From Catenaria anguillulae PL171 (taxonomy: Eukaryota; Blastocladiomycota; Blastocladiomycetes; Blastocladiales; Catenariaceae), in assembly GCA_002102555.1 (NCBI GenBank), contig MCFL01000001.1, positions 372,001-436,000 of the forward strand: a DNA stretch of 64,000 bases, in the 5' to 3' direction. A program made the position numbers and the translations under genes. The notes beneath the pieces were generated by a model. The model did not search any database. It saw only the letters and a list, made by a program, of their open reading frames with translations, and was not told where the DNA came from. Below, in pieces: positions 2,509 to 58,101 of this stretch (the stretch's first letter is position 1; each line of letters opens with the position of its first letter).

Positions 2509-5500
2509 TCATTTCACACCACCTCCATTCGCTCCACCACCACCTGCACCACTCCTTCCATCCTTGCGCTTGTCGTGCTTGCGTTTTTCAACCACCTTTC
2601 CTCCATCGCCGCCTGCACTTGTACTCACGTTCCCATTCTTGCCACTCAACTCAGTGAATGCGCTGCACGCCTCTTGCCAAACCTGCTTCTTGTGGTTCAT
2701 GCGCACGCGCGCCAACCTGCGCGCCTCCTCTTTCTTCGTCTGCTCGGCACGATCCGACTGCTGTGCATCCGTGTCGGCCGCCTCGTGCTCATCTTCTGGC
2801 TGCTGGTGGTGGAGACGACGGCGCATAGCAGCAGCGCCTCCAGGGCTCTTGAGTGGCGATGACGGCGACATTGGCTGATGACGGGCAGATGACGGAGAAG
2901 TCAAGGCAGATGCAGACGCGGGTGACAGCATGGCCGACGAACGATGAGCAGCGGCGCCACCGACGCCCGTGCTCCGCCTTCCAAGCGGTATGGGCGGTGG
3001 CGGCGGCTGATGAACCAAGCTATTGGCACGAGTTGGCGGCGGGACGGCCGATTTGGCTGATTTCAATGGGCTAGCTGGCACGGTGCCGCTGCCATGTACA
3101 GACGAGGTTGTGGACGACAGCGACGAGGTGGATCCCGCGCGCTTCATGAAACGCATATTGGGCGGAATGCTGGCCATGCCGTCCTCTTCGCCGTCAGGGT
3201 TCATGTCACCAGGCACAGGCGTCTTTGGGCGAGGCAAAGGATGGATCTTGTTGCGTGACTCAGATGGGCGCTTTTGCTGAACTAAGGACGACGACGACGA
3301 TGACGAGGCAGAGGATCGAGAATCAGTGGTGCTACTGCTCTTGTTGGGAGGCGTCGTCGTGCGAATCAACGGGATGGCATGTGAAGGTGCTTTCGAGGGC
3401 TTGTCGCCAATCGAATGCTGAGCCGCTTTTGCTGGTGGCCGCGTCGTACCGGCGGGCGAAGAGTGCTTGGGTGGCGCCGGCGCTTGGCTGATTCCCAGAA
3501 TGGCAAATAGCCCACCACCACCGCTGCCGGAAGGAGCATTCTTTTTGGCTGCCGAATCTGCAGATGCACGGGAAGAACGCGAAACCGAGGTGGTCACAGA
3601 AACAGAGTGGGCTGGCTGCGGTTTTCTGGGATGCGGTCGCGTGGACGCAGGTGGATTTGCAGCCATAGAATCCGGTCGGCGAGCTGAGTGATGATTGTGT
3701 TCCTGCATGTTGTTGGTCGGGCGATCATGCCTATGGCCGCGCGGGTCCGATGCATGAGAAGGGCGTTTCTCGGGGCCTGGGCCCTTCCCTTTGTGTGGAG
3801 CGGGTGGAACAGGTGCAGTTGGTGGTCTGGCTGGCGGTGGGAGAGCTACTCTGGGTCTAGGCGGTGGCGGCGACTTGAGGTTGATGGGGCGCTTGGGCTG
3901 CAAAGAGACGGACTGATTTTGCGAGTTGGGTGGTGCCGACGTTGCCGTTGCCGTTGATGGTGGCGACATGCTCGAGGGAACAGAGAAGGGCTTGTTAATG
4001 AGCGCGGACGCGTCGGTCGGTTGTTGCACACTCGAGTCGTCGGTCAGTTGGTGCAAACCCACGTTGACTGGTATCGTCGCCGCATCACCGCTACCCTCTT
4101 GCTTGTCGAGTGACGACACGACCAATTCCACATCCTCCATCACCACGTCCCCATCCTGATCGTACTTGACATCCGACAAGTCCATGGCCGGCGAAATCGC
4201 AACCTCGGCAGCCTTGTCGGCGTGCATGTCGACAAGTTTGCGGCTTGAGAGGGCGTTGGTGGGCGACTGCGACGGCGGAATACGCGATTCGAATAATGGC
4301 ACGGGCGGCGGTGACGGAATCGCATCCACATCAATGAGCTCGGGAGACGCACATTGCGGGGCCGAAAGCAGCTGATTGGACTTTGCTTGGCCAGTGTCCA
4401 ACGCGACCACGTTGCCTTGAGTACGCTCTCGTTGATGCCCCATGTTGTTATCGGCCATTTCATTCGGGTCGAATACGGTCGCATCCGAGTCGATGAAGCC
4501 GGCCTTGGGTTGGTCCAGCAGACAGTGTACTTCAAGTGAATGATCTGGATCGGCCGTGGCGCTTGGTTCCTGTGGGTCAACGTCCATATCGGCACCTGGG
4601 TCAGCCGCGGGATCCGGGTCGACTTCGGTCGTATCCGACTCAACCGATCCAGCCTTGGGTCGCTCCACAGTGGCATGCGAAATCGCCGCACGATCGGGTG
4701 TCACTGGGTCGGTGAGCGGTGTCGAAATCCTCTGTAATGTCAAGATAGGATCTGATTCCGAGTCGAGCCTCGTCTCGTCGGGCTGTTCCACTAACCCGGC
4801 ATGTCCGGACACCAACTCATCTTGATTCTCTGACCCGCCCACGTCCACGACATCTTGCCGCATCTCCAACATATCCTTGGCCACACCAGCCAACTGCGGC
4901 ACCTTCGGGGCCAATCTCAACACCGGTTCCCCTTCCGACTCCAACGACAACTCGCTCGCGGGCGTCGCGACCGAACCGATACTTGACGGCGCTCGTACTG
5001 AGCGGATTTCTGGATCACTAACGCCATGCTGATCCGCCGTTAAACTTTCATGTGCGGGCATCACGGCCGCGGCTGTTGCCAGCGACTGAATGCCCATTGC
5101 GGCCGCCAACGAATTCTTGCCCATGCTCGCCGGCGCGCCGGGCCGGGCGTTTGTACCGGCGGACGAACCGGGCGGCGGCGGCAATAGCCGCGCAAGAGCG
5201 TCGAGATCGGTCGTGACTGTGGATGGGGTCATGGTGGGCGACGATGGGCGTTGGCAGACTTCGAGGAGAAGGTCGCGCAGCATGGCTTGTTGGTCGGGGT
5301 CGAGCGCGGTCGGCGAGAGTGGTGGGTGGGCCGACGCGGGCGGTTGGGCAGTCGTAGGGGGAGTGGAAAAGTAGTCGGGTTGTGGTGGAAAGTTGGGTGA
5401 GATGGGCGAGGTTGTGGTCGAGAATGCGTGTGCTGTGGATGGGGTGGGTGTCGGGGTTGCGGATGTATTCATGCTCACAAAGTAGGGTGGCGCCGTGGCG

Positions 5501-8076
5501 AATGAAGGGATGGTGAGTGGCGGGAGGCTTGCTGCTGCCGATGCTGGGAGAACTGTCGAAGTGGAAGTTGTCATTGGATCGCGATGCGACGGCATTGTGA
5601 CGTGAGACACCGCCGGGTGCTGCGGTTGTGGCCGTTGATGATGTTGCGGCACGTTCCGCTGAGTCGGTGCCATGTTTTGCTGATACTCACGGCGTCGCTG
5701 TTCGTGATGTGATGGAATTGGAAACACGGCGAGCTGGTGGGATTGGATCCGGCCGGCCGCATTGGGATCTGAGTGTGTACGCATCGGAGCAAACCGAGAT
5801 TGCTGTGACCCAATGTGTGCGGGAGGAGGAGGAGGTGGTGTTGCTGGAGCACTGAACTGATGCTGGTGATGCTGCTGCTGTGTGAACGCTTGCTGAGCAG
5901 CATGTTGCTGCAGAAAACGTTGGTGCTGGCGAGAGATAGCATCTCGGTTCATGTTTCGGCCCGATACCACTGATGAAGCCGCGGCGTGGACGTGGGGAAT
6001 CGCGCGGTGAAGTTGTTGTTGTTGCTGCTGTTGCTCTGGTACCAAGGAGTGGGATTGTTGATGCTGCTCAGAGACATAATGCCCTTGGACAACATGTCCT
6101 GGTGGCACCAGTATATGATAACCGGACAATGATGTATGCTGGGATTGCTGCTGCTGCTGCTGATGGTATTGCTGATGAGCCGCATGTTGGAACTTGGCTG
6201 AATCAGTTCGCACAGTCACGTTTGCTGGCGATAGGTTCACAAAATTGGCATGAATGTGTGAATGGGACAAAAGCCAGTGCTCTTGCGCAAGCGCTTGCTG
6301 TTGCTGTTGCTGTTGCACTTGTTGCTGCTTCAGAAACTCTGCGTGAAGAAGATGCTGTTGCTGGTACACTTGCCGGTGAATCTGCTCTTGAACATTGGCA
6401 GCAACGCTGGCGTGGTCGACGAGATATGAATCCGAAAAGTGAGCAGCGGGTGGTGGCGGAGGTCGTGTTGGCGGGGTCCGGACCCGATCAAGGTCTTGCA
6501 GTTGCAACGGAGGCGTGGCCGAATGTCGGGGCGGGTCAGTTGGCTGTGCCAGTCGAACCGGGTCGTGATGTCTTTGAAGAGCGATGGTGGGCGGCGACAA
6601 GCGGAATTGGTCGCCATTGGTTGCATGCATCATTTCTGACGACTGTTGCTGCCGCAGGTTCTCGATAAGCGGCTCGAGGGACTGGAGCGAATACTGTGGC
6701 GAGCCGGTGCGCTGCACTTTTGAAGGAGGCTCACGGTCACTGGGCGTGAAAGAGTGATGGGTATTGTTGGTTGTCGGAGTGTGACGAGAACGCTTCTTGG
6801 TGGATGTACTCGATACGGACTGCGGGGAAGACAAAGGGGAGGGACGGCACAGCCGGGACAGATTCATGAGCACACGACAGGAAGGAAAGCTCAAGACAGG
6901 TAGGCATCGACTAGAAATGACATACTGCGGCAATAAAGGGTATAGTACCGGACAAGGTGTGTGGCGAGGGAACGGCGACTTGACGCTGGCTCGACGCATT
7001 TCCAGTGACTGGTGATGGATCAACAGCGTGCGAGTGTGTCTGCCTGTCATGCGGCGAGATGAAACACAAGAGATCAGCATGAAGGAGGGCCGCGATGTAG
7101 CACGTGGGAGGACGCACGTCGGCAAGGGTGGAAATGAGACACCGCTCTTTGCGCCAAAGTTCGGTGAAGAGGGAGCAGATTGGGAGCCAAATGGTCGCTT
7201 CGCGGAGGCTGAAGTCATGTTCGCAGTACCACCAAGTGGATGATCTTGCGGCGCGACCGATGTCGCAAATTTGGGTGCAGAGGCCGCGGAACCCGTTGGC
7301 GCATACGACCCGGTGGAAATTTGCAACAAACATCGCCCCAAAAGGTCGAGGCGCCGGCAGTCGTGGGCAGTTAGATGCGCACGGAAGCCCGAGCGTAGGA
7401 AGCGAACCAGATTCCTGCACATGTCTTCCAAGCTGGAAATGAAGGTGGTTGCCGGATTGACATTTGAAATCATCCATTGGTGAATGACTCGACCGCCGTG
7501 ACTCTCGTCATCCAGGTTGTCGTCGTGATCGGAAAAGTCGGGTGTGAACCGCCCACTTGCTTCGAGGGATTTGGCCGATACGCTAATGACGGTTGTTTTG
7601 GGAGGGACTGGGTTTTCGAGCGGGTTTCGGGGCGCGCTCACGCCAAAGAGCAGGTGGCGAGTGGAAACGGGAGGCATATCCGACGACGGCTGATTTTGGC
7701 GTCGGCATTGACGCTGAGGCGGAGGCGTCAGGACGACGACCGACGCGACAGAGGACGTATCGGAAAGATCATTCATAAGTTCATCGTCCTTTTCGATCGA
7801 AATTTGATTGATGGGAGCGTTCCCATCGTCCGGATGTTGGTGGTGGGTCGATGTTGTGTCGGATGATGTAGTCCGAGACGGCGGATCCTGCGAGGGTAGT
7901 GGCAAGATGTATGCACCATGACCACTGTGGAAAGAAAAGTCCTGGGAACGAGGCCGTGATATGGAGGAAGGGTGCATTTTTCCGCGGCCGTTCCCGTTGT
8001 GTGGCAGTGGGTCCAAAAGGGCAGGAGGTTTGAGGAGAGCGGAAGGCAAGTGCAGAATGGGTGGCGATGGCGGCAA
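2509..8076 (-). CDS. very large Gln/Pro/Ser-rich low-complexity protein
   Basis: A minus-strand frame stays open for nearly 5.6 kb. Two probable introns (7009-7142, GTGTCT to CACCAG, and 6820-6925, GTATGT to CCGCAG) keep frame and remove segments with poor codon usage, leaving about 1,775 residues. The only ordered-looking part is near residues 210-260, a helix containing SLEDMCRNLVRFL. The rest has several polyglutamine runs, long Pro/Ser/Thr stretches, an internal duplication around PKAGSVESD and PKAGFIDSD, and a basic charged C-terminal helix with EEARRLARVRMNHKKQ. No catalytic domain is visible. Such composition is common in transcriptional co-regulators and scaffolds, but function is unassigned. 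It sits between two SANT-like paralogues and is divergent from the second one. Confidence 0.75.
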   Translation of the reverse strand: MPPSPPILHLPSALLKPPALLDPLPHNGNGRGKMHPSSISRPRSQDFSFHSGHGAYILPLPSQDPPSRTTSSDTTSTHHQHPDDGNAPINQISIEKDDELMNDLSDTSSVASVVVLTPPPQRQCRRQNQPSSDMPPVSTRHLLFGVSAPRNPLENPVPPKTTVISVSAKSLEASGRFTPDFSDHDDNLDDESHGGRVIHQWMISNVNPATTFISSLEDMCRNLVRFLRSGFRAHLTAHDCRRLDLLGRCLLQISTGSYAPTGSAASAPKFATSVAPQDHPLGGTANMTSASAKRPFGSQSAPSSPNFGAKSGVSFPPLPTCVLPRATSRPSFMLISCVSSRRMTGRHTRTLLIHHQSLEMRRASVKSPFPRHTPCPVLYPLLPQYVISSRCLPVLSFPSCRVLMNLSRLCRPSPLSSPQSVSSTSTKKRSRHTPTTNNTHHSFTPSDREPPSKVQRTGSPQYSLQSLEPLIENLRQQQSSEMMHATNGDQFRLSPPTIALQRHHDPVRLAQPTDPPRHSATPPLQLQDLDRVRTPPTRPPPPPAAHFSDSYLVDHASVAANVQEQIHRQVYQQQHLLHAEFLKQQQVQQQQQQQALAQEHWLLSHSHIHANFVNLSPANVTVRTDSAKFQHAAHQQYHQQQQQQSQHTSLSGYHILVPPGHVVQGHYVSEQHQQSHSLVPEQQQQQQQLHRAIPHVHAAASSVVSGRNMNRDAISRQHQRFLQQHAAQQAFTQQQHHQHQFSAPATPPPPPPAHIGSQQSRFAPMRTHSDPNAAGRIQSHQLAVFPIPSHHEQRRREYQQNMAPTQRNVPQHHQRPQPQHPAVSHVTMPSHRDPMTTSTSTVLPASAAASLPPLTIPSFATAPPYFVSMNTSATPTPTPSTAHAFSTTTSPISPNFPPQPDYFSTPPTTAQPPASAHPPLSPTALDPDQQAMLRDLLLEVCQRPSSPTMTPSTVTTDLDALARLLPPPPGSSAGTNARPGAPASMGKNSLAAAMGIQSLATAAAVMPAHESLTADQHGVSDPEIRSVRAPSSIGSVATPASELSLESEGEPVLRLAPKVPQLAGVAKDMLEMRQDVVDVGGSENQDELVSGHAGLVEQPDETRLDSESDPILTLQRISTPLTDPVTPDRAAISHATVERPKAGSVESDTTEVDPDPAADPGADMDVDPQEPSATADPDHSLEVHCLLDQPKAGFIDSDATVFDPNEMADNNMGHQRERTQGNVVALDTGQAKSNQLLSAPQCASPELIDVDAIPSPPPVPLFESRIPPSQSPTNALSSRKLVDMHADKAAEVAISPAMDLSDVKYDQDGDVVMEDVELVVSSLDKQEGSGDAATIPVNVGLHQLTDDSSVQQPTDASALINKPFSVPSSMSPPSTATATSAPPNSQNQSVSLQPKRPINLKSPPPPRPRVALPPPARPPTAPVPPAPHKGKGPGPEKRPSHASDPRGHRHDRPTNNMQEHNHHSARRPDSMAANPPASTRPHPRKPQPAHSVSVTTSVSRSSRASADSAAKKNAPSGSGGGGLFAILGISQAPAPPKHSSPAGTTRPPAKAAQHSIGDKPSKAPSHAIPLIRTTTPPNKSSSTTDSRSSASSSSSSSLVQQKRPSESRNKIHPLPRPKTPVPGDMNPDGEEDGMASIPPNMRFMKRAGSTSSLSSTTSSVHGSGTVPASPLKSAKSAVPPPTRANSLVHQPPPPPIPLGRRSTGVGGAAAHRSSAMLSPASASALTSPSSARHQPMSPSSPLKSPGGAAAMRRRLHHQQPEDEHEAADTDAQQSDRAEQTKKEEARRLARVRMNHKKQVWQEACSAFTELSGKNGNVSTSAGGDGGKVVEKRKHDKRKDGRSGAGGGGANGGGVK
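5863..6380. repeat. cluster of CAG/CTG-type triplet runs encoding polyglutamine
   Basis: Runs of CTG/TTG triplets on the plus strand (for example near 5865-5900, 6010-6035, 6148-6175 and 6293-6330) read as polyglutamine on the minus strand inside the 2509-8076 gene. They are interspersed with His and Ala codons. Such runs are prone to length change. Confidence 0.8.
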
Positions 8077-22337: not shown

Positions 22338-24985
<2,648 letters not shown>

Positions 24986-25525
24986 CTTGAAGATTCAGTC
25001 GTCAGGACGTGCGCTTGGGACTCGAGAGGAGGCGAGGGACGTCGTTGATATGTTGAACAGTGGATACGAGGGCTCAAGTGGGCATCGATGTCATCTGCAC
25101 ATTTGGCTGTGATACGGTACGGTAAGATTGGAGGATTGGGCGTCGTCCTCACTTGACATCTCTCGTCTCTCGTCTCGCCTTTCTTCAGAGTATCGATGGA
25201 TCGACGAACGCCTGTGCTTGACACAGTTCATGCATCAAGTCGAACAACACGCACGACGCCTCACGCCACTCGAGGTTGGGTCATGGGACACATCACCGCG
25301 ACACTGTCATGTCACACCGAGCCTATCCCTACTCAAGCATCATTGGCCCCGACTTGAGCTCACAGCCCATGATGCAATCCCATTCATGCTCCTTGAAAGA
25401 GAAAAGTACAACGTAGGCTCGATCGACAACATGACATCAAGCAGCCAGGACAGAGGGGAAGAACAACATCAAGAGAAATGTACAAGCAGAGAACCAGAAA
25501 CGAAACACCCAAAACGAGGACAGAG
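24986..25525. other. intergenic region
   Basis: 540 bp between the kinase start and the end of the copper transporter. It contains the kinase promoter; no gene seen. Confidence 0.5.
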
Positions 25526-33042: not shown

Positions 33043-34492
33043 ATGGAAGACCCAGAGTCGCCCTCTAGCCACCGTCGTCGCGCATGTCGGGCTTGCAGCA
33101 GCCGTCGATTGCTCCGATGGCTATGTTGCTCGATATCGCTCCGCCAGTCCATAGCCACCCGATTACTGTATTGTATGGGCTTCATCCTCGTTGGAATCTT
33201 TGCCGTATCGGCCAAGTACGCCCCGGCGCCGTTGGTGCAATGGGCCAAATCAGTTCACCCAATCACTGGCTCGACGAATTGTACAACTCGAGAGTGTCTC
33301 GCCATCATGTTTGTGTTTCGCATCATCTTGGCCAATGTCATGTACCACACCCTGCATATGGTGCTACTGGTCAAAGTCACCTCGACGAGCGATCCACGCT
33401 CCCATGTCCAAAACGCAGGCTGGTGGATCAAGGGCCTGTTGCTCCTGGGAATCATTGTCGCCATGTTTTTCGTGCCCGCCCAGCAGTTGGAACCGTTTCC
33501 AGTTGTCTCGTTTGTCTTCACAACATTGTTTCTGCTCATGCAAACATTCCTGCTCGTCGACTTTGCTCATTCCTGGGTGTGTTTGCTGGCCAAATTTTTG
33601 GTCTTCAGTCGCAGTGCTAACTGGTGGTGGTATACTTGGTCCGAAACAGGCGGAGCGGTGTCTCATCCGCTACGAAGAAACACAAGGCGTCTTCTGGAAA
33701 TTGGCCCTCATCACCGTCACAGTCTTTTGTTACGGCTTCACTATAGCTGGCATCACCTTGCTCTACGTTGCCATCACGCCAACGTCAGCAACCGTTGCCA
33801 TTCTGCGCGGTCCTTCGTGCTGGATCTCGTCCTTTTCCATCTCCACCTTCCTTATACTCAACCTGCTCCAAACATTTCTTTCCGTGCACCCAACCATCCG
33901 CAAACACAACTCGAAATCGGGACTGCTGCAATCCGCCATCATTGCCGTTTACACAACCTACCTGCTCGTCTCTGCCCTTGGTACCGACCCATTCCAATGC
34001 GGCGGATCTGTCGTGACCTCCATCGGCGGTGGCACAGCCCCAATGCCTGACACAAGTGCAGGCGGCGGGGGCGACCCAACACTTGTGCGCCTCGCTACCA
34101 TTGGCGGTGCCATCCTGTCACTGCTCGCCTTGTCCTACTCTGCATTCGGGACCGCTAGCACACAATTTTTCCTGGCACTCGCACCGTCCAACCCAAACCT
34201 CAGCAGTGGCAGTAGCAGCAGCTCTTCGCGGTCGACTGATGACGACGAGACGCAGCAGGTCAATTACTCGTATTCCTTCTTTCACTTTACGTTTGCGATT
34301 GCCAGCTTTTACTTGGGCGTGCTTGTCACGGACTGGATCACCTATGCATCCGACGAGGTGTTGGCACTCCCCGTCGCGCTCCGTTCCTTGGCACCAGTGT
34401 GGGTCAAGCTTGGGTCCGGATGGATGGTCATCATGTTATACTTGTGGACGCTCGTGGCACCGATTGTGTTGCCCAATCGGGACTTTTCATGA
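33043..34492 (+). CDS. TMS1: serine incorporator (SERINC/Tms1) family membrane protein
   Basis: Two exons, 33043-33576 and 33650-34492, with a 73-bp intron (GTGTGT to GAAACAG, likely branch GCTAAC), give 458 residues. Family blocks are intact: RLLYCMGFILVGIF, the Cys-containing lumenal loop with NCTTRECLA, a GWWIKGLLLLGIIVAMFF helix, FLLMQTFLLVDFAHSW and, across the splice, AERCLIRYEE. About ten hydrophobic helices follow. The C-terminal blocks YSYSFFHF, LVTDWITY and WMVIMLYLWTLVAPIVLP are typical. SERINC/Tms1 proteins are endomembrane and plasma-membrane proteins linked to serine-derived lipid supply and lipid scrambling; yeast Tms1 is vacuolar. A Ser-rich, acidic insert near residues 385-405 is a variable cytosolic loop. 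Confidence 0.92.
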
Positions 34493-34828: not shown

Positions 34829-37800
34829 CTACTGCCGCCGGTCCATGGACGACTGCCTGGGAATCGTCTCCTGTGGAAGGAAGAACCACTGGGGCTCGTT
34901 GTTGCGTGGATCCACGCGCACCGGCAGTGAGGGCGGAAGCGCGGCCGCGTACTCGGTCTCTGACATGAACTCGCCTCCTCCAGCTTCGCCGCCGCCATGG
35001 AAGAACGAGTCGCCGCCATCGTATCCGGCGCCGCCGGCACTTGGCGGTACTGCCGTCCGGCTCGATGACATGGAGCTAAAGGACGAGCTTGTGCTGTTGG
35101 CATCCGACGACTTGTACTGACCGGCTGGCGGAAGGGAATCAATGCGAGCAGGCCGGGTACCCGTGGTCGTAGTTGACGACGCACTGGACTTGTTACCCGA
35201 CTGCGACCCAGTGTACTTGATGGGCGTCCAGCTCCAATGCGGATTGACCAAGTAGGAATGCGCCGGCAGCGAAATCACATCGTCCTCGGGAACGCCCAAC
35301 TCGACCAGGGTCGTGTAGGTGAGCTGCATAAACTTTTCGGGCCCGCAAAGGACAACACGTTGCGACCGGCCCGATTCTCCTTGTTGGATCCACTTTTTGC
35401 GCTCGAGCAGCGAGGCAAGGAACTGGCGGTCCACGCGGCAAGTGTGGTATCGGACTTGGCCACCGTTGGCGGTTGCAGGGCTGGGTGCTTCGCGTGTCAG
35501 CACGTACTCGAGTGACAGCTGGTCCGGGTACGCGGCGCGCACGGCCTCGAGCATGTCGGTTCCAATAAGCGATGCAATATTCCTGGCCGCGTTGACCACC
35601 GTCACCTTGGCCTGCCTCCCGATCCACGGCGTGAGCTTTGACAAGTGAATGATGCCGTCTTGTGCAGTATCCGCATTTGTCGCAAACACCCACCCGTTCT
35701 GGAGGGGGTGACGCAAAAACACCTTGTGCGAACGCTTGACGGCCAGCTCGGACGCCTTGGTTGGAACGTTATCGGCCGCGGGTCGAAGCGAAAACGTGGT
35801 CTGCATGAAGTACCAGGACAACATTTGCAAGTGCGGCGTCATGCCACTGCCCACACCAATGCACAGCACCTCGTCCCAGCACCCATTGTGCATGGGCAAG
35901 GGCCGTTCAATGTTGATCAAGGGACTGCCGAACGGGCCACGAATCTTCCACTGTAACTCGCCCGGGCGCGTTTGCCGGAACACATTTGACATGACACCAT
36001 CGGGCAGGCACTTTGCAATCATGTCAAACACGGCCATGTTGCCCGAACACGGTGTGTAATAACGAGACACAAACTGGCCGCGGACACGCAACTGGAGCTC
36101 GATTGCTTGACCCGGAAACAGGAATAGTGGGTCCTCCTCGTAAAGCTCGTTGGGGAACAGGAGACAAAACTTGAGGCGGTAAACCTCGGCATCGGCGCCT
36201 GCACTCGACAAGAGTTCCTTGGACGTCAGCGCGTACCGGCGGTACTCGTCCTTGGTGAACTGGTTTTGGCAAGCAACATCGAGTTTGGCGACCACAAGCT
36301 TCTTGAGCTTGCCAATGGCCTCGGGAGAGTGGAAGTGTTGGTTGCGAGCACGCATAATCATCTTCCAATCCTCCTTGAGAATCCTCGGGTCGGCCTCAAC
36401 GTCGCGGTTGTAAATACCAGACGCATCCGACGGAGCCGCCGAAACCACAGACATGCGATTCATCACAGCACCATCTTGCTGCTGGCCGACACGCATCACG
36501 CTGACGCGATTATTGATGACGCCGCTCGAGCGTGAGCGCAAATCGGAACCATCGTGGCCTTCGTTGGTCAACTGGTTAGGACTCTTGCGAACGATACCGA
36601 GGCCGATAGCGTTGGAGTCATCACCATTGCCTAACATGATACTGGGCCCGCTCGACCGGCGGTTGCGGAGGACGCTGGCCGGTGGAGCCTCGTCAAAGTC
36701 AGGACGGTCAGCCCACGGCGTAAACAAGTCCATGTCGTAGCCAGAGTTGTTGAAAAAGTCGGACGAAATGTCGGTTCCGAGCACATTGTACAAGACAGCT
36801 TGACCACCAGGATGGTTGAAGATCCACGTTTCAATATCTGACATAGCAAAGGCGATGGTGCAAATGGGTAAGTGGCAGTGGCTCGAGCCAAAAGTGCAGA
36901 AAAGTACGTACCGTAGACGAATCCATTGCCAACAACCCACCGCTTCCCCTTGACTACCTCCTCATCCACGTCTCTCCACGACACGAGCGGCAAATCGTCA
37001 CGCTCAATCACAATCTGCTCGGCTGCGACCTGCTTGGTGTTGGCCTTTGTGATTCCCATGACATTGGCCCTCGGCAACGAGCCTGTACCACCGGCACCCT
37101 TGAGCTTGGCAGCATGCAAAATGCGCTTGGTCTCCATGACGCCAAAGAACATGAGCCAGAGCGACGCAACCACAAAGTATGCAATCCACCAGGGCATACC
37201 CAAACTACCCGATTGGTTTGTTGGATGGACGAGGTTGATGGCCAGTGGGATGTTGAAGACGGCGACGGCAAGAATGAAACGACCGAGGTTGTTGTGAACA
37301 AGCTTGATGTACTTGATCCACTTTGACCGGCTACCAAACAAGAGCCGGCGGAGATTGGTGAAACCGATCAAGAGCTGAAGCAGGATCAACGAGTACAGAC
37401 ACAGCCCTACGACTCCGTGCGCGCTGTTTCCGAGCTGGGTCACGGAAATGGAAAGGGCACCGGCAATAATGGCCATGAGCGTTGCCAAAACTTGAAGCCC
37501 GACATGGCCCATGACCCAACCTTCGCAAGTGCGCAAGTACCGAGCAATGGCGACAGCAAGCGGCATCAGAAAGCCAAATGCCGTAAACATCATGATCGCA
37601 TGCGCCAGCAGCACACCCGTAAGCTCAATGACCGATGCCCTTTGCGCCGAAGCGCCGGTGAAAAAGTTGACGGTCACAGTGCCACGATTGGACCCATGGA
37701 AAGTGATTTCGCGCGATCCGACAATCGAGTAGGACCAGATCATGGGCTGCTGGCCGTCCTTGCGAATCGCCACCCGCCCGCCAGGCGGCATGGTCTTTCG

Positions 37801-40338
37801 CCGAAACTCGATCTGGAATCCGTCACCTTGCAATGAGCGAGATGACACGACCGAAATCGGTGACGGGCCCGTGCGACCGGCTTGTGCCGCAACTACGGGG
37901 CGTGCGTACGCGCCCGTCGGCCGATACTCGGTGACTGAAATGTCGGATCCAAGCCGGCGGGCAATGTACATTTCGGTCGCCGACAACATGGACCCGCCGC
38001 CTAATCCAAACGCGCAATACCCAGCAAACTGGCACTGGATCATTACGCGCATGGTCTCGTCGGCCGACCCTTGGTTCTCAAACACCCACGAAAGGCGATA
38101 CCCCGGCGCCAACTCCATTGAGAATGGGAAACCTGGTGGCGCGTCGACGATCCTTACTCGCCCCGCATCGGGCACAACTTGCCACACATTGTCAGGAATG
38201 GTGATGGGCAGCTTGCCAAGCAACGTGTTGCGCATAATCACATCCCTCAAGCTTGTGTTCCGAATCTCTGCAAGCCGCTGCGGCGACAAGACGCCCGGAT
38301 TCTCAAACCAGAACCTGTCGCCGTCCCTGAGCGCCTTGAATTGCGTCACGACCGACCGCGTAAACAACGGGCCTAAATTTGTCTCGCGCATCTCGCGCGG
38401 CTCAATCAACCCGCCAACCAGTGCATCCACTTCGTTCACGTCCCGATACACGGCCGCCAGTCTGGGTCCAAACTCGGGGTTGATATCGTTGAACGTGGCA
38501 GGCACAGACAAGCCAAATGCGCGCCGAACCGCCGTGTACGAGGGGATTTGGTAGTCCTTGGCGCGAAACAAGTCAAAACAAAAGCCGTCCATGCCGCCCA
38601 GCCTGGGGCCGAACACGGTCGATCGCATGGGCTCGGCGTAAAACAGGTCCATTTCGTCCTGAACTTGTGTGGCCATGCCCGCAAAGAAGGGGCTGAGCCC
38701 AAGACTCATGATGAGATCGGTCCGGAAAAAGTTGGACGCAAGGTCGACTTGCACTGTGCGATTTGTGTTGCGGTCAATGTACGACAAGAAGGTTGGAATT
38801 TCCGAGTGGCCAAAACGGTACGCGACAGACGCAAAGAAGGCGTCAACGTCGGGGCGGACACGTGGGTCGTAGCGTTGATAAGGCTCGATGGGTTGCCCGA
38901 GAAGCAACGGCTGGAAAAGGTGGAGAATATTTCAGTCAGTGACTTTTCAGAACAACTACGTGGCGTGAAAGGAAGAGCGAGCATACAATGTACTCGTAGT
39001 AAGTGATGTGCTGGAGTAATGCAATCACGTGTGCCCTGGCTTGCTGGTACGCATCCTCGTCGCTGATTCCTGATTGCCGTTGGCGCAGCTCGCCCACGAA
39101 CCGGTTGTGTTCACGGAGGAAGAGCGTGTAGAGTGCCTGCGAGTATGGCGACGTGTTGCCGACAATGGATCCCAGGGCAAACAGCTGGTCTTGCCCAGGT
39201 GGCAGAGTAGATGTGGACGTGTTTGCACCATTTCGGTTCTAAATGCGCACAGACGCCTCATGTCAGCGCGAGGCATGGGAAAGGGGCACAGAAAAGGGTT
39301 GGAGAGGAACGTACCTCAGCTACGGTTGGAGGATATGTCCCTTCCGAGTTGGCAACCAAGCGCATGAGCGCTCCGTCACGCAGTGAGTTGGCCTGTTCGG
39401 TTGTGGCGCCGTACAACTGTCGTGCGGAAGCAAGCATATGCGCGTGAGCGGCCATCGTCGGACACACTTACAATAGTGAAGGAACGAGGCGTACGTGAGA
39501 GCCGTCAATGTATGATGTTGCAACGTTGATCGGAATCCGCTGTGGCCCTTGACCGGAAGCAATGGCGCTGTTGGATAGGAGAAATTAGAGTGAGATAAAC
39601 AGGAACAACAATCGCCTGAAAAGTGATGGAAGGTCAAACAGCGCACCGAAAGAAGGAGAAGTTGGACCCGGGTGGCAAGAAGCGGTCGCCTTCGGGCACG
39701 TTGACGGTCGCTCGGTCTGCAGGCGCCCGTGACGACGTGACATGGGCAATGTCGTGAATCAAAAACTCGCCCCAGCTTGTTGATGCACAGTGTCAGTCCA
39801 CGCTTCGCAATTGCACGTCGGGCGCTACAATACGGATACATGACAAGGGAACGTACAATGTATGCAAAACGGTCAACTGGCGGACGTTCTTGATGTCGCG
39901 CTCGGACCTGGCCAGTCCATTGGACAAGACGCGCAGGTTGGCGACGGCAGCAGCCGAGAAGTTGGCCGTTTGCGTGACCTGTGACCGGATGTAGGGCTGG
40001 TCGACAGTACCCCAGCGTGGATTTTGCAAGTTGTTGCCGCTGCCGTCAAACGAGCGGAACTCGCGTGTTCCGGATTGCGCGGCAACAGTGGCGAGAGTCA
40101 CAGCGAGCCCGAGGATGAAAAGCGACAGTGTGCGCCCACTGCTTGCACTTCCAAGTGGGAATACACTCGGCGGCGGTGGTGGCACGGCCGCGAGCGAGCT
40201 GCGTCGCCGCGCCCTGGCTCCGCTGCTCTCTGTGCTTGAAGAAGAGCGGTGAAGGAGGTCCATGGACGATCGCTTCGGCGAGGCATGGGCGTGTGGTGGC
40301 GATGGTGAAAACATTGTGCTGGAGGATACTGGTATCAT
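34829..40338 (-). CDS. animal-type heme peroxidase-DOMON-cytochrome b561-b5-FAD/NAD reductase fusion
   Basis: Seven exons (40338-39857, 39775-39647, 39567-39495, 39416-39315, 39238-38987, 38910-36912, 36837-34829) keep frame throughout and encode 1,681 residues. A Ser/Arg-rich start is followed by one hydrophobic segment (71-88, signal anchor). The animal-type heme peroxidase (about 92-560) has FDGSGNNLQNPRWG, distal His168 (WGEFLIHDIAH), YIDGSHLYG, LFLREHNR, ALLQHITYYEYI and proximal His381 (YRFGHSE). A DOMON-like beta domain (about 595-765) follows, then cytochrome b561 (775-942) with histidines 783, 815, 844 and 885. A cytochrome b5-like module (987-1045) keeps HPGG. A ferredoxin-reductase-type domain (1185-1610) has RYYTPCSG for FAD and GVGSGMTP plus VVLCGPEKF for NAD(P)H. 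The layout predicts cytosolic NAD(P)H oxidation, electron transfer through the membrane and an outward peroxidase. Confidence 0.9.
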
Positions 40339-40876: not shown

Positions 40877-43434
40877 CTAGTCCGAATCCACATCCATGTT
40901 GTCGTCCATGACAACCGACATGCCCTTGAGCTCCTTGAGGAAATCGTCGTCGCCCTCATCTCCTGCCGCCGACTGCCTCCGTCCCTTGCCCTTGCCCTTT
41001 GTCTTCTTGTCCTTACCCTTGCTGGCCACAGGCGCTGACTCCCGTGCCTCCTCCTCATCCGAATCCACGTCCATGTCCTCGTCCTCTCCTTGCTCTTCCT
41101 CATCGGCCGACGACTCATACTCGTCCTCGTCTTCCGATCCCGAGTCGTCCCTCCTTGCTTGCTTACCCTTCTTGCCCCGCTTCCCGCTCTCGTCGTCATC
41201 CCCGGCAGCCCCAAACGCATCGTAATCCTTGATGAACGACGCCTGCACTGCCTCCATGCGCTTGGCCTCAACCTTTTCCACACTGGCCGCAAACTTGCCC
41301 AAGGGCGTCTCGGCAACGGGATCCAACTGCGCCATGAACCTAGCCACGGCCGCCGTGTCGCAAGGCGCCACATCTGCAGCCTGCCGCTTGCCGCGAATAA
41401 ACTTGGCATTCTCGTCAATCTTGTCCAACAAGCCCTGCACTGTCTTTGACCAGTTGGCATCCTTTGTGGCCTTGACGTTGGCCTTGAGCGCCACCACAAC
41501 GGCAATGCTCAGCTCCGGGAACGCCACATGATTGGACAGCGCACCGAGGTACCGCAACAAGACCATGTGCACGGCGCCACGAATCGACTGTGCATACACG
41601 CGCGTGCCCGCATATTGCTTGGGACACTTGACATAGGCGGGCAAGTACAAGGGCTTGAGCGTTGACTTCTTTGCCTTTGCGTCCGTCGGGACCGCGTCCA
41701 AGATGGTGGCAAAGTAAGGCGCGAGCGGCACGTACACGCCACACACGCGCACCAGATCGGTGAGCGACTGCAGCAAGTGCAAGTGCAACGGGTGGTAGTG
41801 GGTCGTGGGCACCAGTCGAATCACGCCAAGCATGACTTGCACCAGCGGATACACGAGCTGCGTGAGCGGCGACGCCGACCCTTTGGGCGCATACGTCAAC
41901 AGTACATTGGCCCAGAACCGGATCGAGTGCACGTATTGCCACTGGTAAACTTGGCGGTACGCCTCCTTGGTCTTTGCGGCCATGGCCGACCGCAAGTGAA
42001 TGGCGAGCTGGCGAATGTAAATGAACGCATACTGATAACTCATGTCGGCATCCAACCCATACGCCTCCGCCGCACACCGCGTCAGCAGCGTGATGGTCGG
42101 CAACGTGTGCACCGTTGTGCGGCGTGACGACTTGACAAACATCATGTACGTGCCCTTGAGCGTCGGCTCAAGAAACTTTTTCGGATGCGTCGCGGCCAAG
42201 TCGCGAATGTGCGCAAACGCTTTGACGCGCAGCGCATCGTGCGTCGAGTTGCCCCAGGTCGCGAGCAACAGCCGGAAGTAGTCCTTGGACAGCTTTGGGT
42301 AGGGCAGGATGTAGACGACCGAGGCGTGCAGTTCTTGCAGGAGGTACTCGGTCATGGACGGTTCCGTCGTGTCCTTGAAGAGCTTGAGGGCGTTGGTCAT
42401 GAACACCTTGACCATGGCCGACACGCGCTTCCACTTGTTGCTGCTGGTCGGGCTACAAGGGCAGGTGAATCATGCGGGGATCAGATTTTAGGTTGCATGA
42501 AAGCTGGAGTTGTACAGGAAGGGACGTACTTGGAAGACTCGCCGAGAACGGTTTTGAGAAAGTGGGGAACGTGTTTGAATGCTAAAATGACCACCTTGCG
42601 GTGAATGGTGGCGGAGGGAATCACATAACCAGCCGACTTTGAGTCGGCATCCTGTTGGACCGAAGACCGGAACGCAACCACGAGCCGCTTGATGTTGTTT
42701 GGTGTCTCCTTCTGCAACCAGTGAGAAATGCATGTTGGTTAACGGAGTGCCCCACGTGGAACGTTTCGACAGGATATGCATGCACGCACCTCGGCCAGCT
42801 CTGCCTCCCACTTTGCCACCATGTCCTTATCCAACGTCTGTTTTTGCGGCGTTGCCTCCTCGATAAACTGAGTCTCTTGGTCATCAAACTCCTCCTCGAC
42901 CTCGTGATCCTCGTCGTCAAAGTCGAGCAGCGACTGGTCATTGTCAAGCAAGTACTGGTAAAACTCGGGCTGCGTCTGCTTGAGGCGTTCGAGATCTCGC
43001 TTGTGCACCGACGCCTCGTTCACCTCATCATCTTCATCCGAAGACACGGCCTCGTCGTCATCGTCGTCTTGGTCGCTTGCATCGCCGGCAGCATCTACAT
43101 CCATGTCCAACTCGGCGTCGTCGTCATCCGAGCCCGACGGCAAGTCGCCGTCATTCTCGTCGTCATCGACGTCATCGTCATCGTCTGACAGGGTTGGAAA
43201 CTGATCGAGATCATCGGCAGCCAAGCCAGCGTCGTCGTCATCAGAGCCATCCATGTCGGGTTCCGCCGCGAGGAATTCGTCGAGGGACATGGACTTGACG
43301 TTCTTGGCAGCTCCAGATTTGCCATTGGAAGCAGAAGCTGATTTTGGCGCTCCCTTGGGCTTGCTGGTAGCCGGTGCGGCGGCCGAGAATTTGCCGCCCT
43401 TGGACTTGTTATTGAACTTTCCACGGGGCGCCAT
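40877..43434 (-). CDS. NOC2: nucleolar complex protein 2 (Noc2), ribosome biogenesis
   Basis: Three exons (43434-42790, 42711-42530, 42452-40877) encode 800 residues. Introns are 78 bp (GTGCGT) and 77 bp (GTACGT). The N-terminus is basic, then strongly acidic, leading to QPEFYQYLLDNDQSLLDFDD, a recognisable Noc2 segment. The body is a HEAT-like helical array with family blocks such as PTITLLTRCAAEAYGLD, YQWQYVHSIRFWANVL, QLVYPLVQVMLGVIRL and YFATILDAV, and ends in an acidic Lys-containing tail. Noc2 pairs with Noc1 and later Noc3 on pre-60S particles and escorts them from nucleolus to nucleoplasm. The ATG at 43434 starts the basic segment MAPRGKFNNKSKGG. Confidence 0.93.
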
Positions 43435-55566: not shown

Positions 55567-58101
55567 ATGGCAATGAGCACGCAGTCTCCGATTCTTCGCA
55601 CTCAATCTTCGCAGTCTTCGCTGTCGAGTTGCTACTCGAACGTGTCGTCTTCATCGGCCAAATCACCCTCTTCTGGACCAGCAGCCGATCCGCCATCCGC
55701 GTCCACAATGGCGACTCCGCTTACCATTTCTCGGCCAACGACGCCCATCATGACACCGCCGCCGTCGTCCTGCTCTCCGCCTTCTCCTCGTCGGCAGCAA
55801 CTCTCGCAGCGGTGCTCATCGCCTCTTTTGTCGACGCGCGCCACCGATGACAATAATGTTCCACACCCGGCGCCATTTCACATACAACGGCCAGCAACCC
55901 CGCCCACGGATTCATCGAGCCGCAGTGGCGCAAGCGGAGCATCCTCATCGATTTATCCCATTGGTCGCCCTCTCGAGTCGAGTTCGAGCCATTATCTAGG
56001 TCCGTGAGGCGGCTCCCCCTTTTTTGTTTTTTCTCTTCTTCAGGTGATTTTGCAAATGCTGACCCCTTTGGATGATGGTTATGGTCCAACAGACAGCCAT
56101 CGTGACCCAATACTGTCGGCCGTTACATCCGCCAATTCTCCCTCGTCATACTTGATTACTGTCCCACGCACACCAGTCCGGCACATGACGACCCCACAAA
56201 GTGACCGCTTCATCACGTCCAGGCCGAAAAACAACATGTCTGCCGCCCGCATGCGCGCGGAAATGATGCTTCCACCGCCACTGAGTCCATCCAACACGTC
56301 GGCCCCACCAGAGTATTACCGCGACCCGATCCACGATCCGAACGGCCACTGGAGCCGCATGATGTTTACGCAAATGTTTGGTTCAGCGCCCACGGAATGT
56401 GCCACCCCAACATCATCCAGCGCATCACGCCGGCTTCCATTCACGCTTTCCACCTCCGACCGCGCCACTTCGTCTGCCTCGGGACACGACTACCCACCTC
56501 CAACCGTCTCCACAGCATTCGGCACACGATCGTCATCGCCAACACGCTCAGAATCCTCATCCACACTCGCTTCATCCCCGCTTTCGCGCCGGTCCAGTAC
56601 ACTCGCCACTGCCACGCGCCGTGCGCGGCCCGCACACTCGCGCACGTCGTCGCGCGGTGACGATCCGTTGTTGCGTTCGCCCATCGCCAAACGCGTCCAC
56701 CTTGACCTCGCCGCCTTGGTCGACGACAACAAGGACCCGCGTGCGCCACATCTCTTGGGCGGTGCCGGCACAGGTGCCAAGCCGCGGACACCCAGCACGC
56801 CATCGCGCCGCCCGCGGCTCATGTCATTGACGTCGTCCAACCCCAACCTGCATTATCTGGGTGGCGCAACACCCGTTGAAGTGGCGGGCCGGCCTCACGC
56901 GGGCGTGCTTGAGCCCGAAACACTTGCTGCAATTCGCGCGCAAACGGCAGCTGTGGCCGCTGTGCGCCGTCGCGCAGAGGCCATTCCCGACACGTGTTAC
57001 AAGATCTTGGATGCGCCGGGCATTGTGGATGATTTTTACTTGAATGTGCTTGATTGGTCGTATCGCAATGTGATTGCCGTTGGGCTCGGGTCCGCAGTGT
57101 ATATGTGGGATGCGGCAACGAGCGCCGTCACGTTGCTGACCGACTTGGCGCCGCTGGATTCGGTCGCGTCTGTCAAGTGGAACGGCAACGGCAAGTACTT
57201 GGCCGTGGGCACGAGTAAAGGGTTGGTACAACTGTGGGACGTCGAAAAGAAGGTCATGGTGCGCGAGTTTGGCCAGGGGCATCACGATCAGCGCGTCGGC
57301 GTGCTGTGCTGGTCCCGGGATCGACTGTTGAGCGGGTCAAAGGATCACCGGATATTTGAATGGGATCATCGCGCTCCGGGCACGCCCGCGTTGAGCTTGA
57401 ATGATCACCGAGGCGAGGTGACGGCCATCCAGTGGGCCGTAGACAACCAGTACTTGGCGAGCGGCGGCAACGACAACCGGTTACTGGTTTGGGATCCGCG
57501 GCGCGTTGGTTTGTTGCGTAACTCGTCCACGGCCGCAAGCAACACGAGTCCAGGAAGCCGCGCAAGCAATGGACCGTTGTATACCATGACAGATCACACG
57601 GCCGCCGTGCGCGCCGTGGCTTGGTCGCCGCACAACCCAGGCGTGCTTGCAAGTGGTGGCGGTACAAACGACAAGACGATTCGCTTGTGGAACCTGCGGT
57701 CGTCGCAGCCCACGCGCGCGTTCCAGATGGCCAATGTCGGGTCGCAGGTGTGCACGCTTGCGTGGTCACGGACAACACCGGGCGAGCTCGTGTCAACGCA
57801 CGGATTCAATGGCAATGCCATCGTGGTGTGGGATTCAAGGAACTTGGCGCCGCTCGCGACCTTGTCAGGGCATTCGTCCAGGGTCTTGTACATGAGCATG
57901 AGTCCGGACGGCACGTCGATTGTGACTGGGTCGGGAGATGAGTCGTTGCGGCTGTGGAAACTGTTTCCGCCGGCACCAGGTGCGGCGGTGGCAACTGGGC
58001 ATCGCAATGCAAGTGCGGCAGCGGGGCAAGAACCTGTCGTAAAGCGGTATCCGGCCGGGTCTTCCATGATGGCAAGTCGGGTGTTTGCGGCCCAACGGTG
58101 A
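55567..58101 (+). CDS. CDH1: Cdc20/Cdh1-family WD40 activator of the anaphase-promoting complex
   Basis: Exon one (55567-55999) and a long second exon joined most simply at 56093 (intron GTCCGT to CAACAG, 93 bp, phase 1) give 813 residues; a strong polypyrimidine acceptor at 56043 is an alternative. Ser/Thr/Pro-rich N-terminus, then a C-box-like motif DRFITSR near residue 182, the APC/C-docking element of Cdc20/Cdh1 proteins. From about residue 430 the family propeller begins: IPDTCYKILDAPGIVDDFYLN, VYMWDAATSAV, VQLWDVEKK, HRIFEWDHR, RLLVWDPRR, TIRLWNLRS, and SLRLWKL last. These proteins recruit D-box and KEN-box substrates for ubiquitylation at mitotic exit and G1. The protein ends FAAQR, so the usual terminal Ile-Arg tail is altered. 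Cdh1 rather than Cdc20 is my guess from the C-box. Confidence 0.87.

Follow-up and report, generated by a model that had tools for sequence, protein, structure and literature searches.

The window analysed here is a 64,000-nucleotide stretch of the genome of Catenaria anguillulae PL171 (contig MCFL01000001.1, positions 372,001 to 436,000). Positions 34829-40338 of its minus strand hold a gene for a single protein in which an animal-type heme peroxidase domain is joined to a membrane electron-transfer chain. The spliced reading frame runs over seven exons and yields a coding sequence of 5,046 bases, that is 1,681 amino acids and a stop, which confirms the single frame and the frame-keeping splice joins of a preliminary description made from the sequence. 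All six introns run from GT to AG and measure 74-81 bp. Proteins used for comparison are numbered from P0001.

34829..40338, minus strand: whole gene, seven exons; P0001 aligns over 95% and P0002 over 88% of the 1,681-residue protein
40338-39857, 39775-39647, 39567-39495, 39416-39315, 39238-38987, 38910-36912 and 36837-34829, minus strand: exons 1-7 of the spliced reading frame
40075..40131, minus strand: hydrophobic signal peptide or signal anchor, residues 70-88, from hydropathy

The true start codon is uncertain because Met1 lies about 70 residues ahead of the hydrophobic stretch at 70-88. The deposited model, BCR44DRAFT_121657 (P0008, 882 amino acids), is identical to residues 736-1681 of the spliced protein except for 64 residues that it lacks. 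It begins at Met736, inside DOMON, so that the peroxidase half is absent from the deposited protein, and it skips residues 1068-1131 as a would-be extra intron of 192 bases; the frame is kept either way. A model that spans the second half only is what one would expect if two adjacent genes had been wrongly joined in our reading. We rejected such an annotation fusion, as the preliminary description had done, and regard it as extremely improbable. Exon 6 alone is an open frame that leads from the peroxidase via DOMON and b561 into b5 (residues 347-1012), so no stop separates the peroxidase and reductase halves at the supposed border; the Met736 start falls within DOMON; and 11 further early-fungal proteins, themselves predictions, carry the same order. 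Because the deposited start cuts DOMON, the peroxidase half has been overlooked by the deposited model and not shown to be separate.

The domain composition proposed initially was recovered by a Pfam search of the spliced protein, which gave the order An_peroxidase, DOMON, Cytochrom_B561, Cyt-b5, FAD_binding_6 and NAD_binding_1, with DOMON and NAD_binding_1 below their cut-offs. The matches above cut-off cover residues 94-576 (An_peroxidase, 370.7 bits), 783-904 (Cytochrom_B561, 31.1 bits, cut-off 23), 991-1043 (Cyt-b5, 38.8 bits) and 1246-1317 (FAD_binding_6, 37.8 bits).

38221..40059, minus strand: animal-type heme peroxidase, residues 94-576, from Pfam and residue tables; the span holds introns 1-5
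37639..38151, minus strand: DOMON, residues 600-770, predicted heme ligands Met654 and His751, from Pfam (23.3 bits) and ligand columns
37114..37626, minus strand: cytochrome b561 core, residues 775-945, read as five transmembrane helices, from Pfam, hydropathy and ligand conservation
35870..36262, minus strand: FAD-binding lobe, residues 1205-1335, with RYYTP motif, from Pfam and the b5-reductase fold of the model
35789..35869, minus strand: first part of the NAD(P)H lobe, residues 1336-1362, with GVGSGMTP, from alignment
35240..35602, minus strand: remainder of the NAD(P)H lobe, residues 1425-1545, with CGPEKF, from Pfam (NAD_binding_1 profile 24-106)

The ligands of the putative electron path are conserved across the family in the alignment columns. 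They include the four-His b561 core described at the outset, with its outer pair His783/His844 and inner pair His815/His885; P0011 has gaps at the first two b561 histidines. Together with the Met and His of DOMON, they make up the signature of the CYBDOM proteins (HYP1, CRR, SDR2/FRRS1, CG8399), which share the outer Met/His DOMON and the four-His b561 core. Here b561 scores above and DOMON below the Pfam cut-off; in P0005, P0009, P0015 and P0018 DOMON scores above it. According to the portion of PMC10691727 consulted, CYBDOMs have no fused reductase or peroxidase, and ascorbate is their proposed cytosolic donor; the Catenaria protein differs in having both a fused b5-FAD-NAD module and a peroxidase domain. 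The b5-reductase-like signature is complete, the FAD RxYT motif, GxGxxxP and CGP all being present, and the reductase fold is predicted by a structure model. The two models used are of moderate confidence (mean pLDDT 64.9 and 61.3), and their fold matches are dominated by reductase and peroxidase. Hydropathy predicts that the peroxidase and DOMON domains face outward, in line with the topology first suggested.

A feature beyond that first reading is that the b5 domain is split by a long insert.

36746..36978, minus strand: cytochrome b5 first half, residues 991-1043, with His1021, from Pfam; the span holds intron 6
36347..36745, minus strand: long low-complexity insert within b5, about residues 1044-1176, from the His-His spacing in 12 proteins including this one
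36482..36673, minus strand: part of the insert omitted by the deposited model, residues 1068-1131, from alignment to P0008
36275..36346, minus strand: cytochrome b5 second half, residues 1177-1200, with His1182, from the rescored Cyt-b5 match

A Tyr/Phe after the first half had suggested that the second His ligand is missing. We rejected this possibility, since an HxHS motif lies after the insert and the joined halves score higher: with the insert removed, the Cyt-b5 match spans positions 1-73 of the 74-position profile at 50.1 bits. The insert is mostly below pLDDT 50 in the structure model. NADH-cytochrome b5 reductase, Ncb5or and nitrate reductase likewise combine FAD and NAD lobes of the b5-reductase fold with a b5 heme domain, but the Catenaria module differs in its b5 split by about 130 residues, its SH3-like stretch and its attached b561 membrane part.

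The architecture is common to several fungal phyla, a point beyond the preliminary description. A search with the whole protein, which like the two that follow scored only the 8,000 best candidates, returned seven proteins: those of Blastocladiella britannica (55% identity), B. emersonii (58%), Sorochytrium milnesiophthora (39%) and Nowakowskiella JEL0407 (29%), a Tetradesmus protein, hamster DUOX1 and a rodent thyroid peroxidase. The C-terminal half found four, among them a second Sorochytrium protein (P0009), and the only peroxidase-free relative in that search was the truncated P0008. An alignment search (best 120 of 294 hits) added proteins of Nowakowskiella JEL0078 (P0011 and the partial P0010), Borealophlyctis, Rhizophlyctis, Powellomyces, Hyaloraphidium and Paraglomus. 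Thus the same order, with peroxidase and b5-reductase in one chain, occurs in at least 11 further early-fungal proteins (P0001-P0004, P0009, P0011-P0013, P0015, P0016 and P0018). Four of these are incomplete in Pfam, which misses b561 in P0015 and DOMON in P0004, P0013 and P0016, with only CDH-cyt (E 0.022) in its place in P0004; the ligand columns are present in each. By taxonomy lookup, with Blastocladiella, Nowakowskiella and Borealophlyctis in the phyla to which we take them to belong, the architecture is found in Blastocladiomycota, Chytridiomycota, Monoblepharomycota and Glomeromycota. Database entries of the relatives bear names such as 'heme peroxidase' or 'DOMON domain-containing protein frrs1L'. 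Domain databases may already list the architecture; among the matches listed from the open-licence literature, we found no paper that names this peroxidase-b561-reductase chain. The Tetradesmus obliquus protein (P0005), from a green alga, has peroxidase, DOMON and b561 but no reductase, and its model misses the N-terminal part of the peroxidase.

The distal His168 and proximal His381 named in the preliminary description both align with the catalytic positions of the peroxidase family. The working peroxidase that it placed at the outer end is not supported, because the catalytic His/Arg/His set is incomplete: Val288 stands in the place of the distal Arg. The family comprises 15 rows, of which 14 can be scored (13 fungal and one metagenome protein), Tetradesmus lacking the N-terminal part. 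The full set is found in one of these 14, Powellomyces, and the proximal His in 14 of all 15; Sorochytrium P0003 has none of the three residues. In the Catenaria domain, Ile and Thr occupy the columns that we take, from the sites of myeloperoxidase, to be those of the two heme-ester acids; the thyroid peroxidase row also lacks the Asp of these columns. Of the four animal rows, two (thyroid peroxidase and an insect domain) have intact sets, a second insect domain has Ala instead of the proximal His, and hamster DUOX1 has Ser/Arg/Ser. Set against the losses in the fungal family, the DUOX1 residues indicate that both domains have decayed, at different residues: DUOX1 has the Arg but neither His, the Catenaria protein both His but no Arg.

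It has to be asked whether the outer domain is nevertheless a working peroxidase that is fed H2O2 by its own reductase half, for example in wall or cyst cross-linking. Both histidines are present here and in both Blastocladiella proteins, and Powellomyces has His/Arg/His. However, Val288 at the distal Arg, the incomplete set in 13 of the 14 scorable rows and the loss of even the proximal His in Sorochytrium P0003 make this unlikely.

By sequence, the best matches of the peroxidase domain are the cyanobacterial TDX16 peroxidase, Dictyostelium PoxA and DUOX1, and a model of the relative P0010 gives the same three by fold. TDX16 peroxidase and PoxA resemble the Catenaria domain in fold and overall sequence, but the alignments show that they keep the catalytic Arg. 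In a quick tree of 64 rows (45 from other database rows), in which DUOX and Paraglomus sit on long branches, 13 of the 15 family rows form one cluster (SH-aLRT 87). It excludes Powellomyces, Tetradesmus and DUOX, none of which has a firm position. These data bear on whether the protein shares with animal DUOX one ancestral peroxidase-reductase fusion whose NOX core was swapped later. Although the outside-inside layout is the same and DUOX1 ranks high among the solved structures that match the domain, we consider such common descent very unlikely, since DUOX stands outside the family group in that tree, the cyanobacterial peroxidase and PoxA match better than DUOX1, and the core families differ (b561 versus NOX).

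The likeness to DUOX is therefore one of layout. Both have an N-terminal peroxidase-family domain, extracellular by prediction here, with a decayed active site, followed by a transmembrane heme relay and a cytosolic FAD/NAD(P)H module. The Pfam domain order upholds the earlier proposal that b561 and DOMON replace the NOX core: DUOX has a NOX ferric-reductase core where the Catenaria protein has b561, DOMON and b5, and the fungal protein also differs by an SH3-like stretch in its NAD lobe. Neither Ferric_reduct nor EF-hand is among the eight Pfam families listed for the Catenaria protein at E<=1. Because it has no NOX core and no EF-hands, it is no DUOX by membership.

Two further elements, likewise beyond the first reading, are probably regulatory.

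35603..35767, minus strand: SH3-like insert in the NAD(P)H lobe, residues 1370-1424, from Pfam SH3 in relatives and strands in the model
34868..34945, minus strand: conserved C-terminal motif, within residues 1644-1669, PSLPVRVDPRNNEPQWFFLP, from the pattern shared with relatives

The SH3-like stretch sits between the GxGxxxP loop and the remainder of the NAD lobe. Pfam SH3 scores above cut-off at that place in P0012 and P0013 (Borealophlyctis and Rhizophlyctis) and below it in P0001-P0004 and P0011; the Rhizophlyctis stretch matches the SH3 domains of vinexin (4.3e-9) and p47phox (3.1e-5). Pfam SH3 is not listed for the Catenaria protein, even at E<=10, nor for P0009, and the model shows strands there. 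Powellomyces, Hyaloraphidium and Paraglomus have no SH3 listed either, and their NAD_binding_1 match is unbroken from position 1. The tail pattern Px[LIM]Px[RH]xxPxxNxPxW[FY][FY]LP occurs in all five full-length Blastocladiomycota proteins and is absent at the ends of seven other fungal proteins. We downgraded the idea that the internal SH3 binds the C-terminal PxxPx[R/H], because the motif is absent in the chytrids with the clearer SH3. Sorochytrium P0003, with His in place of Arg in the motif, also argues against such binding, as do the residues that we take to form the canonical SH3 groove, which look mostly lost in Catenaria. NOX homologues of Naegleria likewise place an SH3 within the NADPH-binding domain, but they have a NOX core, and the portion of PMC3591440 consulted mentions no peroxidase, b561 or b5.

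A profile search of the Catenaria genome matched An_peroxidase in this gene only. Parts of both b561 and b5 occur at no fewer than four other loci (L019, L020, L022 and L023), and in three of these Pfam also matches FAD; a fifth locus, L024, carries b5-FAD but shows no b561 match. L020, L022, L023 and L024, which carry b561 and/or b5-FAD parts and no An_peroxidase match, represent an expanded family in the genome. The paralogue L019 (C436:488000-496500, positions 4096-6699) has b561 and b5, but its NAD motif is degenerate (VAGMADAAL); its tail motif is related to that of the window gene, and a very similar copy of the locus lies on another contig (L006 on C95, seen in part). A related form of the tail is also present in L020, and a looser one in L023; by eye, none was seen in L022. 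The DuoxA maturation partner had no match in the genome, and the control genomes gave none either.

These paralogues bear on a further explanation, in which the protein reduces a metal, a quinone or a secreted enzyme (ferric iron or an outside partner enzyme) and its peroxidase-like domain, as in peroxinectins, does no more than mediate adhesion or docking. The membrane part is like that of the CYBDOM ferric reductases treated in the portion of PMC10691727 consulted; Pfam CDH-cyt, an electron-donating cytochrome, matches below cut-off in P0004, P0010, P0011, P0015 and P0018; and the four or more b561 and b5-reductase loci of the same genome do without a peroxidase domain. We regard this explanation as credible though rather unlikely, because the fusion to the peroxidase domain has been kept in several phyla and the proximal His in almost every family row, which points to a bound heme and a role that is not purely passive.

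Taken together, we favor as probable that the gene encodes a plasma-membrane NAD(P)H oxidoreductase that has reached the layout of the animal dual oxidase by convergence and passes electrons outward. We infer its heme occupancy, electron flow, acceptor and regulation as follows. Electrons would pass from cytosolic NAD(P)H via FAD to the b5 heme (His1021/His1182), from there to the inner (His815/His885) and then the outer b561 heme (His783/His844), and finally through the DOMON heme (Met654/His751) to an acceptor outside the cell. The likeliest acceptors are O2, which would yield superoxide or H2O2, and ferric iron. The outer domain would no longer be a classical peroxidase; in Catenaria it probably still carries heme on His381 and acts as a cap, a docking surface or a product converter.

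Several points weigh against this reading. It rests on genome sequence and predicted models, which are compatible with O2, iron or another acceptor alike. The Pfam matches to DOMON (residues 617-740, 23.3 bits) and NAD_binding_1 (residues 1420-1518, 20.6 bits) are under the curated cut-offs of 32.7 and, just, 22. Because Catenaria and both Blastocladiella keep both peroxidase histidines and Powellomyces retains the complete set, some family members may still be peroxidases. The full set is present in 104 of 111 other database rows, the remaining seven being partial segments with gaps, yet these rows were chosen by similarity (from the best 120 of 294 hits), and the few that are named are bacterial. 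The genome also has 15 Ferric_reduct matches; with such ordinary genes present, another oxidase may not be needed.

More tentatively, fungi may have built a dual oxidase independently: a b561/b5-reductase would have replaced NOX, and the captured peroxidase domain, losing its peroxidase chemistry as in animals but via other residues, would have become an output-shaping cap, switched within the chain by the SH3-like domain and the PxxPx[R/H] tail. The role of the decayed DUOX peroxidase domain is called obscure in the portion of PMC4420034 consulted. A natural comparison for DUOX is offered by a second lineage in which a peroxidase domain seems to have been joined to an unrelated membrane chain driven by NAD(P)H, with peroxidase residues lost afterwards. 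Possible stages of decay are Powellomyces (intact, without a firm place in the tree), Catenaria (both His, no Arg) and Sorochytrium P0003 (none of the three). The protein would also be a candidate NAD(P)H-driven outward electron enzyme in early fungi, of a kind that surveys for the NOX core would miss.

The flanking genes, of the Serinc family (33155-34492, plus strand) and the Noc2 family (40877-42469, minus strand), give no hint of a functional cluster. A 1,855-residue stop-to-stop frame at 2509-8076 (minus strand) had no Pfam match at E<=0.001; of nine window frames scanned, five had none, and some may be non-coding. Other reading frames in the window encode a PH-PBD-kinase (PAK-like) protein at 22967-24994 (minus strand) and a CDC20/Fizzy WD40 protein at 56008-58101 (plus strand).

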